A stretch of DNA of 64,000 nucleotides. It comes from Pseudomonadota bacterium. Lineage in GTDB: Bacteria; Pseudomonadota; Gammaproteobacteria; Xanthomonadales; Rhodanobacteraceae. Of the stretch, positions 31,840-40,225 are shown piece after piece (the stretch's first letter is position 1; every line of letters starts with the position of its first letter). The notes below the pieces were generated by a model. It did no database searches and was not told the DNA's origin. It saw nothing but the letters and a program-made list of their open reading frames with translations. The position numbers and the translations under genes are program-made. Location of the stretch: the NCBI GenBank assembly GCA_021827205.1, contig JAKAWV010000004.1, forward strand, positions 1 through 64,000. Reading direction: 5' to 3'.

Positions 31840-33225
31840 TCACAGCGTAAACGGCAGCTTGGCGGTGATGCTGAAATCCGGCGCATCCGGCGTCAGGCCG
31901 ATGCCGAGATTGCCGACGAAGGTCATGCGCTCGCTCAGCGCGTAGGTCATGCCGATACCCAGCGTGGCGGCATTACCGTCGCTGCCGATGATCTTCTCCC
32001 ATACCCCGGTGGCATCCGGACGAATCCTGGCGCTGCCATTGAGGCGCTCCGAGAAACTCATGCTCAGACTCATGCGCTCGTTCAGGGCGAAGGCCACGCC
32101 CACGCCGTAGTTGAACGCGTTGCCGAGGTCGACCGAGCCCGGGCTGATCGTATTCGAGCTGTTATCCAGGTCGGCAAAATGCTTGCTGAAGGTGTGGGTG
32201 ACGCCCGCGTTTGCGAACAGGATCGCCGGGTCCAGCGTCTTCAGCATCGAAGCGCCAAGGTTGATGCTCCACACACCTTGCCCGCTGGGCTGCTTGGTCG
32301 GCACCGCAAATTGGATGAAATTGTCGTTGCCACGCTCAAGCACGTTCCACGGAATGCCGTAGGGCGCCTGCCCGGTGGGAATACCGACGCTGGTGTAGAG
32401 CGCGATTTCAGGCCGTGTGGGAGTTTCTGGAAACAGGCGATAACTGGCGCCGGCAGTGACGTCGCCCACCACCACATCGCCGCCCACGCTGGCCTCGGCC
32501 ACGGCGGCTGCGGAGCCGCCAGCGCCACCCTTCTGGTAGGTGGTCCAGCGCTGCACCAAGGGAACTTCAATGCTGGCGGAAAGGTCGCGGGTGATGCCTT
32601 TGCGTGCGGCGAAGGTATAGGTGAAGGTGTCGGATGCGACATCCTCGACCGCGATGCTGCCCAGGAAGATCGCGTCCAGGGCAAGGAAGCCGTTGAGCGT
32701 GAGCTGTTTGCGGTCGTAGCGCGCATAGTTGAGGCCGATTTCGAGCGTCAATGGCTGGTTGAACAGCACATGTTGCTGCTGCAACACGTCTTCAACGCTG
32801 CGTGAAGTGGGCTCTTGGCGCGTGCTGCCCTCGCTACTGACCAGCGCCTCGCCACCGCCGGATCGGGGCGTGGCCGACTGCGTGTTCACGCCAGCCGCCA
32901 GCGCCGTGGTCGCCTTGCCACCCTGGGCCGATGCGCCGCCACCCCTCTGAATGGCCTGCACCCGTGCCACGCCTTCTTGCGCCTGCACGCGCGCGGTCAG
33001 CGCCTGCAGGCGGATCTCCAGCTCACGCAACTTGCGCACTTCATCGGCGTAGCGCGATTTGAGCGTCTGCATCTCGCGGGTGATCGCCTGCATGTCCTGG
33101 GTGTTTTCAGTGGCGGCACCTCCGGCTTGCTGCGTCTGCTGCGCCGACGCTGGCGCGCTGGCAGCCAGTATCGCCGCGACCAGCGCCAACAGCGCACCCG
33201 AATTGAGCTTGCGCATCATCATCAT
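31840..33225 (-). CDS. fapF: FapF-like outer-membrane amyloid exporter
   Basis: A 461-residue outer-membrane protein. A signal peptide (1-28) is followed by an N-terminal coiled coil (about 41-85: MQTLKSRYADEVRKLRELEI), a low-complexity linker (about 88-150), and a beta-barrel (about 150-461) with alternating hydrophobic strands, ending FTL. This is the architecture of FapF, the trimeric porin with an N-terminal coiled coil that secretes Fap fibre subunits. The barrel opening (TLEIGLNYARYDRKQLTLNG) fits the FapF-like transporter family. It is the last gene of the six-gene operon, matching fapF in the Pseudomonas order. Confidence 0.82.
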   Translation of the reverse strand: MMMMRKLNSGALLALVAAILAASAPASAQQTQQAGGAATENTQDMQAITREMQTLKSRYADEVRKLRELEIRLQALTARVQAQEGVARVQAIQRGGGASAQGGKATTALAAGVNTQSATPRSGGGEALVSSEGSTRQEPTSRSVEDVLQQQHVLFNQPLTLEIGLNYARYDRKQLTLNGFLALDAIFLGSIAVEDVASDTFTYTFAARKGITRDLSASIEVPLVQRWTTYQKGGAGGSAAAVAEASVGGDVVVGDVTAGASYRLFPETPTRPEIALYTSVGIPTGQAPYGIPWNVLERGNDNFIQFAVPTKQPSGQGVWSINLGASMLKTLDPAILFANAGVTHTFSKHFADLDNSSNTISPGSVDLGNAFNYGVGVAFALNERMSLSMSFSERLNGSARIRPDATGVWEKIIGSDGNAATLGIGMTYALSERMTFVGNLGIGLTPDAPDFSITAKLPFTL

Positions 33226-33264
33226 CGTCCCCTGTAGTGTGTTGCTCGCATGTGTGTTGATGAC

Positions 33265-34053
33265 TCAGTGCCCACCAATGCCCTTCAATTGCCCCAACGC
33301 CTGCGCCACGCTCTGTTGCAGCAACAGGCTTGAACCCTGTGTTGGCTGCACCAGGGTGATGCGCAATTGGTTGGACACGTCATGTCCGTCGCCGAGCAGG
33401 CTGACGGTTTGCAGCACCGCGCCGTTGCCGGAGGCATCACCGCGGATCATCTGGCGCAGACTGCCCTGGCCATCGATACCCAGCGTCACCGCTACACTGT
33501 CTGCCTGCAGCGCCGCGCTGGCATTGGCACCGCCCGTACTCAGCGTCGCATTGGCGCCGACGCCATTGCCCGCGCCCGCAGGCATGGTGCTGGTCAGGTG
33601 CAGTTCGGTGCTGTTGCCGGCACTGTTGAAATCGCCGGCGATCTGGATGCCTTGCGCGATGCCGCTGACGTTATCCAGGCCACTGGCATTGATCGTCCGA
33701 TGACTGGTGTCGACCAGCACACCGCCACCGCTGCCCTGCACGATGCTGACGGTCGGCACGAAGCTGATCTGCGGCGTGCCCGTGGAGAAATCGAAACCGA
33801 GCAGCGCGCTGCCGCTGAGCACGCGGCCATCCGAACTGTGCCATGTGGACAACATCTCGACGCCGAAATAAAGCACCTGCCCGGCGCCGGTGATGAAGCG
33901 CCCGCGCATGGCATCGAGTGCGGGATCGGACACGGGCTGGATGTCTTGAGTGGCGGCGGGTACGCGCTCGCCCAGCAGGCCCTCATCGGCTGCTGCGGGC
34001 AAGGCCAAGGCCGTGGCAAGAACCAGTGCAATCAATGTCGGAACGCTGCGCAT
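33265..34053 (-). CDS. fapE: FapE-like exported protein
   Basis: A 262-residue exported protein with signal peptide 1-22 (LALPAAAD). The mature part starts DPALDAMRGRFITGAGQVLY then FGVEMLSTWH, followed by beta-rich sequence with SGIAQGIQIAGDFNSAGN and a Gln/Leu-rich end. Position (between fapD and fapF), size and the MRGRF-x-FGVxMxSTW pattern suggest FapE, a minor fibre-associated component in Pseudomonas. No catalytic motif is seen. The assignment leans on synteny. The ATG at 34051-34053 is chosen at the signal peptide. Confidence 0.72.
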   Translation of the reverse strand: MRSVPTLIALVLATALALPAAADEGLLGERVPAATQDIQPVSDPALDAMRGRFITGAGQVLYFGVEMLSTWHSSDGRVLSGSALLGFDFSTGTPQISFVPTVSIVQGSGGGVLVDTSHRTINASGLDNVSGIAQGIQIAGDFNSAGNSTELHLTSTMPAGAGNGVGANATLSTGGANASAALQADSVAVTLGIDGQGSLRQMIRGDASGNGAVLQTVSLLGDGHDVSNQLRITLVQPTQGSSLLLQQSVAQALGQLKGIGGH

Positions 34054-38641: not shown

Positions 38642-38775
38642 CGGTTTGCAAAACCGCTCCGGCACATGAATGTGCCGCCGCGACGAGCACGCAAGTGCTT
38701 GTCGCGACAAAGGTGGTGCGGCTTTGCCGCGCCCGTTTGCTTGCAAACCGCGGCAGGATGCCCGGTTTTGCAAAC
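38642..38775. repeat. 134-bp nested inverted-repeat region
   Basis: The region is bounded by a perfect 13-bp inverted repeat, GTTTGCAAAACCG (38644-38656) and CGGTTTTGCAAAC (38763-38775). Inside are several perfect or near-perfect hairpins: GGCACAT/ATGTGCC (38661-38676), CGCGAC-n-AGCAC/GTGCT-n-GTCGCG (38679-38706), GCGGC/GCCGC (38718-38730) and GTTTGC/GCAAAC (38735-38748). Most of the 134 bases are in stems. It could be a miniature mobile element or a structured leader of the gene at 37878-38612. Confidence 0.7.
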
Positions 38776-38860
38776 TGACCTAGTTAAGAAAGCTAACAGC
38801 GCAATCAGCGCGGAATGAAATTGCGCCGCCATACGCGGCGTCGAACCAGCATTCGGCTTC

Positions 38861-40225
38861 TCAGGCAGCGCTGCCGAGGGATACCTGCAACTTCTTGCAC
38901 AATCGATACAGAGTGACGCGTGAGATGCCGAGACGCCGTGCGCATTCGCTCATGTTGTGGCGCGTTTCGCGCAGAGTCTGCTGGATCAGCTCGCGCTCGG
39001 CCTGCTCGCGGGCATGCTCCAGCGAGAGCGCGCAGCGGCTTTCCGCCGGATCACTTTCCAGTTCAAGATCCTGCGCGCGGATCAATCCGCCATCGCACAG
39101 CACGGCCGCACGGCGCACGCGGTTCATCAGCTCGCGCACGTTGCCCGGCCATGGATGCAGGCTGATGGCGTCGAGCGCCTCGCGGCTGTAGCCGCGCGCA
39201 CGCACACCATGTTCGCGCGCGAAACGTTCGAGGAAATAGCGTGCCAGGATCTCCGCATCCTGTCCGCGTTCGCGCAACGGTGGCATGCGCAAGCGCAGCA
39301 CGTTGAGGCGATAGTAGAGATCGGCGCGGAACTGGCCCTCGGCCACGGCGCGCTCCAGATCGACATGCGTGGCGGCGATGACGCGCACATCCAGGCGCAG
39401 ATGTTCATTGCCGCCGATGCGCTCGATGGTGCCTTCCTGCAGAAAGCGCAGCAGATTGACTTGCGCATCCAGCGGCAAATCGCCGATCTCATCAAGGAAT
39501 ACCGTTCCCTGCTGGGCCGACTCCAGCTTGCCGATCTTGCGCGCGTTGGCGCCGGTGAAGGCGCCGCGCTCGTGACCGAACAACTCCGACTGCACCAGTT
39601 TTTCCGGCAGCGCGCCGCAGTTGATCGCGACAAACGGGCCGCGCGCACGCGCCGACAATCGATGCAGGTTGCGCGCCGCGACTTCCTTGCCGGTGCCTGA
39701 CTCGCCTGTGATAAGCACCGGCACGTTGACCGCCGCCAGCTTGCGCACCTGGCTGTGCAATTCCACCAGCGCGGAACTGGCGCCAACCATGCCTTCCAGC
39801 CCCAGCGCGGCCTGTTGCTCGGCACTGGCGGCTTGCGGCCCCAACTTGGCCATGCCCCAGGCATGCCCAAGCGCCGCCAGTAGCCGGTTGATGTCCACCG
39901 GCTGCGTGCAAAAATCAAAAAAGCTGCCGTAGATGACCTCGCATACGTGCTTGTCGGTCAACGCATGCTCGCTGACATGGGCCAGCCACTCGGTGGAAGG
40001 ATGCGAGGCGATCAGGCGTTCCACCCGGCGCAGCATCGGCGCCTGCCCGGCGCCCAGATCGAGCAGCGCAACATGCGCGTCGTAGCGTCGCAGCGCCTCG
40101 GGCACATGTTCGAGTTGCTCGACCTCGACGCGCCTCCAGCCGGCATCGCGCAAGGCCCTGTCCACAGATGGCGCGAAGGCGCCGTAATGCACGAAATCGC
40201 GTGCGACCGGATGCACCGAAGCCAT
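38861..40225 (-). CDS. Sigma-54-dependent activator with VpsR-like N-terminal domain
   Basis: A 454-residue enhancer-binding protein. The N-terminal domain (about 1-125) resembles the receiver-like VpsR domain; D56 lies where a phospho-acceptor might be, but the pocket is not typical. The AAA+ domain (about 145-375) has Walker A GESGTGKE (174-181), the sigma-54 contact loop GAFTGA (221-226) and Walker B TVFLDE (241-246). A Fis-type HTH follows at about 423-446 (MSECARRLGISRVTLYRLCK). The intact GAFTGA means it can activate sigma-54 promoters, and one sits at the fap operon 1.4 kb away. VpsR and FleQ relatives sense c-di-GMP and control biofilm genes. RBS GGGGAG precedes the ATG. Confidence 0.9.
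   Translation of the reverse strand: MASVHPVARDFVHYGAFAPSVDRALRDAGWRRVEVEQLEHVPEALRRYDAHVALLDLGAGQAPMLRRVERLIASHPSTEWLAHVSEHALTDKHVCEVIYGSFFDFCTQPVDINRLLAALGHAWGMAKLGPQAASAEQQAALGLEGMVGASSALVELHSQVRKLAAVNVPVLITGESGTGKEVAARNLHRLSARARGPFVAINCGALPEKLVQSELFGHERGAFTGANARKIGKLESAQQGTVFLDEIGDLPLDAQVNLLRFLQEGTIERIGGNEHLRLDVRVIAATHVDLERAVAEGQFRADLYYRLNVLRLRMPPLRERGQDAEILARYFLERFAREHGVRARGYSREALDAISLHPWPGNVRELMNRVRRAAVLCDGGLIRAQDLELESDPAESRCALSLEHAREQAERELIQQTLRETRHNMSECARRLGISRVTLYRLCKKLQVSLGSAA

Follow-up and report, generated by a model that had tools for sequence, protein, structure and literature searches.

We analyzed a 64,000-nucleotide stretch of DNA from a gammaproteobacterium of the family Rhodanobacteraceae (positions 1 to 64,000 of contig JAKAWV010000004.1, assembly GCA_021827205.1; hereafter the window), which carries six genes of the Fap functional-amyloid system next to a gene for a sigma-54 activator of the VpsR/BrfA type. 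The open reading frame (ORF) list contains six consecutive ORFs on the minus strand between positions 37432 and 31840, and a further minus-strand ORF, 38861 to 40225, encodes the activator; all seven lie where an earlier note, made from the letters of the window, had placed them. The six proteins matched NCBIfam Fap profiles in the order fapABCDEF, and all six reading frames are open. We also compared gene neighbourhoods, extending up to ~9.5 kb upstream and up to ~2.5 kb downstream, at 31 loci with a strong FapF match, and many of these relatives showed the same gene order.

The first gene, fapA (36917 to 37411), encodes a small exported, chaperone-like protein of 164 amino acids (aa). Its match to the FapA profile is weak when taken alone, with an E value of 0.0071 for the long ORF (37432 to 36917) and 0.0051 for the version starting at GTG 37411, and all 20 positional homologues, the window's included, matched the model at E ≤ 0.01, the best of them at 6.7e-12. 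While the place given to this gene in the earlier note stood, its start was corrected: fapA most likely begins at GTG 37411 and not at ATG 37432, because AAGGAGAG precedes the GTG, and the ATG falls close to where transcription from the promoter-like element described below would be expected to begin. The two following genes encode the amyloid subunits. FapB (36288 to 36917, 209 aa; NCBIfam FapB, 1.1e-26) is the minor subunit and putative nucleator, with three repeat copies visible by eye (GAIAVNLAAGDSN, GLISINQASGVGN, and GVVQLNQIAGMGN), and FapC (34902 to 36251, 449 aa; NCBIfam FapC, 3.2e-48) is the major subunit, in which a pattern search recovered three copies of the repeat motif, in agreement with the earlier description of both as three-repeat proteins. 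FapC contains two cysteines, both N-terminal, and it matched the solved FapC fibrils PDB 9nqd (E value of 6e-18) and 9u4u (7.3e-18).

The remaining three genes encode a peptidase, a second minor component, and the secretion channel. FapD (34114 to 34887) is a C39-type peptidase (NCBIfam FapD, 8.7e-73; Pfam Peptidase_C39, 3.2e-18), whose residues Q79, C85, H169, and D185 do not vary across the 22 sequences aligned, the window's among them; the last three of these we take to be the catalytic residues. FapE (33265 to 34092; NCBIfam FapE, 3.5e-22) is a minor component that is exported and shows the MRGRF pattern, and its homologues occupy the equivalent position in relatives. FapF (31840 to 33225, 461 aa; NCBIfam FapF, 4.2e-110) is the outer-membrane Fap secretion channel, composed of a coiled coil and a barrel, and its residues 140 to 459 matched the crystallised FapF channel, PDB 5o65, with an E value of 4.2e-80. 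The profile searches proposed in the earlier note thus assigned the barrel protein to FapF and the repeat proteins to FapB and FapC. Together, the profile, solved-structure, and synteny evidence support the identification of the six-gene locus as Fap and bear out the fapABCDEF order.

The activator (454 aa) consists of an N-terminal VpsR domain, an AAA+ domain with a GAFTGA motif, and a Fis-type helix-turn-helix, with Pfam matches to VpsR (PF20161, 1.6e-16), Sigma54_activat (1.2e-69), and HTH_8 (1.2e-13). The VpsR match scored 60.6 bits, where the cut-off is 23.7, and a comparison of the N-terminal 150 aa with PDB sequences at E ≤ 0.01 returned two matches, both of them VpsR, the best at 5.2e-11. 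The GAFTGA motif, which forms the loop through which such activators contact sigma-54, occupies residues 221 to 226, at invariant positions of an alignment of 28 activators (the window's, 24 from strong FapF loci, and 3 from weaker FapF-like loci); a VpsR domain was present in 24 of the 28. In its own genome the activator was the sole VpsR-domain protein found, and the same genome gave one rpoN match (sigma-54 DNA-binding domain) and 17 GGDEF matches. The activator presumably senses cyclic di-GMP (c-di-GMP), by analogy with BrfA and VpsR.

A sigma-54 promoter-like (−24/−12) element, TGGCATCAAGCTTGCT, lies at 37439 to 37454 on the minus strand, 27 nt before the fapA GTG, and in five relatives' loci (L069, L067, L061, L065, and L002) an element aligned at the same spot. 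We scanned 28 of the 32 strong loci, the window counted, for this element; L064, L079, L085, and L086 were omitted, as their first fap gene was unreachable or unclear, and L002 and L003 were used in place of L073 and L070. A score of at least 10/12 was obtained in 13 of the 28 loci. For a test outside the genus, 16 loci were retained: L077, L081, and L082 were omitted as sharing a genus with L076 and L080, and L068 and L074, which share a genus, were both kept. Over these 16 loci, the combined p value of the element was 1.3e-8 (real-sequence controls), and two scrambled control patterns gave 0.31 and 0.99.

Upstream of the promoter-like element by 140 bp, we found a candidate activator-binding dyad, TGTTTCA-CGGC-TGCAACA, at 37595 to 37612 on the minus strand. 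In the genus promoter alignment the dyad is perfect in L067 (GGGTGTTGCAT-TC-ATGCAACACCC) and imperfect at the window's 37612-37595; the consensus was chosen by eye from this alignment, using a genus set of six loci (without L065), and was then left fixed. In a scan of 26 of the 28 promoter-scan loci (without L060 and L089), the dyad recurred upstream of fap in relatives, less clearly than the promoter, and the pattern TGTTGCA-N4-TGCAACA reached a combined p of 8.3e-5 over the 16 loci outside the genus. Within the window's own genome, TGTTKCANNNNTGCAACA occurred with 0 mismatches at the fap site alone; when up to 2 mismatches were allowed, there were 25 forward and 28 reverse sites, whereas the backward-read control pattern gave 11 and 12. 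One site with a single mismatch (contig C31 of the window's own genome, G000, at 24141), considered as a second target of the activator but not retained, stands before a gene that by eye resembles asparagine synthetase. The promoter and dyad of one further locus piece, L117, were seen later and stand outside all the statistical tests.

Next to the promoter evidence stands that of gene neighbourhood. A homologue of the activator adjoins fap in 25 of the 31 relatives' loci (in L082, as a fragment at a contig start). Another locus, L064 of genome G008, is split across contigs, and the piece on the other contig, L117, holds the activator, fapA to fapC, and the beginning of fapD; two of the misses (L060 and L085) are cut by contig ends, and three (L070, L073, and L079) are real. 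Adjacency was found in 26 of the 29 relatives that could be assessed, and in 27 of 30 when the window is counted. The arrangement varies: the activator lies upstream on the fap strand in 14 loci and the window, upstream and divergent in 1, downstream and convergent in 8, as in the brfA arrangement, and downstream on the fap strand in 3.

The two genes also occur together. In the genus, strong FapF matches (>360 bits) were obtained in 9 of 13 genomes, and the same 9 encode a strong VpsR protein (>60 bits); in G001 the FapF-like match was partial and weak and the VpsR match fell short of the cut-off, and profile searches of the genus found neither a FapF nor a VpsR match in G002, G003, and G012. 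Since the genomes are all relatives of one another, and completeness is below 90% in three of the four without strong FapF, this co-occurrence is support and not proof. In the wider family, a VpsR-domain match was present in 82 of 147 genomes; among the family genomes in which FapF was searched for as well, all six with strong FapF outside the genus (G014, G017, G019, G024, G029, and G030) had it ~2.5 kb or less from fapF. In two genomes, G005 and G006, the activator is located beside rimO (named by eye) on a contig separate from that of fap; their fap genes are still next to the usual downstream neighbours, and their fap promoters (L002, and L003 at 5754) keep the −24/−12 element together with a dyad scoring 11/14. 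Taken together, the linkage, the co-occurrence, the −24/−12 promoter, and the recurring upstream dyad support the tie between the VpsR-like activator and the operon that the earlier note had proposed.

That note had also described the activator as upstream of the operon and adjacent to it. The gene is indeed upstream, at 40225-38861, but it does not abut fapA, as ~1 kb of DNA lies between the two that is extra in comparison with L069, the nearest relative compared, whose activator is 97% identical to that of the window. This DNA contains a 143-bp copy of an interspersed repeat (38639 to 38781, minus strand), which, counting this copy and matches of all lengths, has at least 31 matches in its own genome, 21 of them longer than 120 bp (scores were computed for 40 of the 62 to 72 candidates), and which has matches in 10 of 13 genus genomes. 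By eye, the repeat is rich in inverted repeats and resembles elements of the miniature inverted-repeat transposable element (MITE) or repetitive extragenic palindromic (REP) type. The extra DNA also contains an ORF of 244 aa (37878 to 38612, minus strand) with a signal-peptide-like start, as judged by eye, and with no Pfam match. We considered this ORF as a seventh fap gene and rejected it, since a search with its 270-aa version gave no match in the other 12 genomes of the genus and it lies in DNA absent from L069; it is probably outside the Fap system. A stray match on contig C23 arose because the longer, GTG-started version of the ORF begins inside the repeat.

On the other side of the operon, an exported-looking ORF of 142 aa without a Pfam match (30593 to 31021) lies downstream of fapF, as it does in L002, L003, and L069. 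It is followed, at 26433 to 30540, by genes that, judged from their translations, resemble a 5-oxoproline utilisation cluster (a LamB/YcsF-type protein, membrane proteins, and a pyroglutamyl peptidase). The G+C content of the 2-kb blocks between 32001 and 40000 was 60 to 64%, compared with 62 to 70% elsewhere in the window, and gave no clear sign of horizontal transfer of the operon. Among the other genomes, G321 has a contig with two FapF loci (L079 and L086) that are divergent from each other: one comprises fapC to fapF and an activator, and in the other we found fapD, fapE, and fapF only. Six weaker FapF-like loci (L090 to L095, E values of 1e-45 to 1e-50) include a FapD-like C39 peptidase in five cases; the exception, L091, begins at the end of a contig. 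Three of the six (L091, L093, and L094) encode a homologue of the window's activator, and L092, L093, and L095 encode other proteins that look secreted and have VQAN-like motifs at their ends. These loci possibly represent a second secretion system under similar control.

We then compared the locus with published systems. Fap has been reported from Beta-, Gamma-, and Deltaproteobacteria, in which the fapABCDEF order is well conserved (Dueholm 2013, PMC3792158), so the novelty that the earlier note implied by calling the operon one found outside Pseudomonas is not supported; like the window, these systems have a complete six-gene operon and three repeats per subunit, and no difference in kind was found. 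GTDB genomes contain 1,172 fap clusters, of which 925 comprise six distinct genes, three repeats are present in 94.2% of FapC genes, and the fibril structure has been solved (PMC12392863). The window shares with Pseudomonas Fap the gene order, the three-repeat FapB and FapC, the C39 peptidase, the FapF barrel, and the −24/−12 element before fapA, which in P. fluorescens PF07 was mapped by 5′ rapid amplification of cDNA ends (PMC9207406). It differs from it in the length of FapC (449 aa versus the 226- and 250-aa chains of the solved fibrils), in the two cysteines of FapC being N-terminal only, and in protein scores below the NCBI equivalog cut-offs.

Concerning the activator, deletion of rpoN or of the adjacent brfA lowers fap expression in P. 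fluorescens PF07 (PMC9207406), and BrfA is stated to be a direct regulator of fapA and a c-di-GMP sensor, of a type widespread in Pseudomonas (PMC13101488). Because an adjacent, c-di-GMP-responsive RpoN activator is already known there, the window offers no contrast with Pseudomonas of the kind claimed earlier, that is, a local regulator instead of distant FleQ. By description, BrfA of PF07 resembles the window's activator in being a Fis-type sigma-54 activator beside fap, with an ORF of 1,326 bp compared with 454 aa, whereas brfA is downstream and reversed and the window's gene is upstream on the fap strand (PMC9207406). VpsR of Vibrio cholerae likewise has an N-terminal VpsR domain and an AAA+ domain and controls biofilm matrix, as is proposed for the window's activator, but its targets are polysaccharide genes and it is RpoN independent (PMC5552954). 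BerB of Burkholderia cenocepacia binds c-di-GMP and is, like the window's activator by description, an RpoN-dependent enhancer-binding protein near a matrix cluster; it differs in targeting berA and exopolysaccharide, not amyloid (PMC5552954). Among the literature matches listed, judged by titles and abstract openings, none tied a VpsR-type activator or the dyad to fap outside Pseudomonas, and none reported experiments on Fap control outside Pseudomonas.

We consider it very probable that the locus is a complete Fap functional-amyloid operon, itself probably working, under the control of a BrfA/VpsR-type activator. By analogy with the homologous systems, when c-di-GMP is high, the activator would bind the candidate dyad at 37612-37595, and its GAFTGA loop would contact sigma-54 RNA polymerase at the −24/−12 element (37454-37439), driving a single fapABCDEF transcript. 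FapB, FapC, and FapE would enter the periplasm, FapA may tune their ratio, and FapD may process one or more of the three, in keeping with the roles proposed for FapA and FapD (PMC6173800). FapF would export the subunits, and FapC would stack as an amyloid fibre in which FapB and FapE would be minor constituents, in a form that may bind the biofilm together.

Several observations weigh against this reading. All six Fap proteins score below the curated NCBI equivalog cut-offs; since the FapF cut-off was reached in none of 369 genomes sampled from the class, 69 of which have a FapF profile match at E ≤ 0.001, these cut-offs are narrow, and the equivalogs are a naming rule narrower than the Fap family. 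The AlphaFold2 model of FapC, built from three sequences only, had a mean predicted local distance difference test score of 29.3 and was uninformative about the stacked Greek-key beta-solenoid layers expected of FapC. At the promoter, the window as a whole is not enriched in −24/−12-like sites (41 found versus 44.1 expected by chance), and the score of the window's own element is modest (p values of 0.035 against shuffles and 0.053 against real-sequence controls), so the weight of the promoter evidence rests on its recurrence across loci. Of five control dyads run over the 16 outside loci, one reached a p value of 0.024 (the others, 0.88, 0.57, 0.08, and 0.87), and the dyad itself scored at least 11/14 in only 5 of these loci and 8 to 10/14 in the other 11; the candidate site is therefore degenerate or not universal. 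At the position of the c-di-GMP contact pair of FleQ, R-S before the AAA+ domain, the activator aligns E-G. A FleQ-type contact was accordingly rejected, as the residues are not conserved, and c-di-GMP binding, if any, would not proceed via the FleQ motif. The repeat and the extra ORF separate the activator from the operon in the window, and V. cholerae VpsR acts without RpoN (PMC5552954).

The activator might be a bystander that merely neighbours a genuine Fap locus and controls other genes, and the ~1 kb of extra DNA before fapA would fit this, as would the two relatives with activator and fap on different contigs and other genes around the activator, and the family genomes G026 and G027, which have a VpsR-domain match without any FapF match. 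We regard this as unlikely, given that the two are adjacent, in more than one arrangement, in 27 of the 30 loci that could be assessed, that strong FapF and strong VpsR proteins are found in the same 9 of 13 genus genomes, and that a single VpsR-domain gene in 3.04 Mb would fall less than 10 kb from fap by chance with a probability under 1%. That the locus is silent or decaying and yields no product, for which the repeat and the 244-aa ORF upstream of fapA could speak, is less likely still, because the six open frames, the peptidase residues, the promoter, and the dyad are all retained.

Least probable, to the point of being hardly credible, is a FapF/FapD-like secretion system with a substrate other than Fap, such as the putative Fil pilus system, which has a related channel and C39 peptidase and which we take to be that of Acinetobacter. 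FapF does match FilC (9.1e-25) and FapD does match FilB (1.4e-33), and there are weaker FapF-like loci that encode other secreted proteins, but the Fap scores of both proteins are far better (4.2e-110 and 8.7e-73, respectively), FapB, FapC, and FapE match Fap profiles, and FapC matches the solved FapC fibrils.

Returning to a Fap operon controlled by its neighbouring activator, we somewhat favor the broader view that a BrfA/VpsR-type, presumably c-di-GMP-sensing activator and a dyad near TGTTGCA-N4-TGCAACA constitute an ancestral module of Fap control that extends well beyond Pseudomonas, its regulator, promoter, and site being kept even where rearrangement moved the operon away from the regulator. 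The amyloid genes and a BrfA-like switch stand together here in a little-studied lineage, and the promoter with its dyad provides a concrete, testable prediction for Fap control outside Pseudomonas. If the broader view is true, amyloid under c-di-GMP control could be predicted in many proteobacteria from a single sequence signature.

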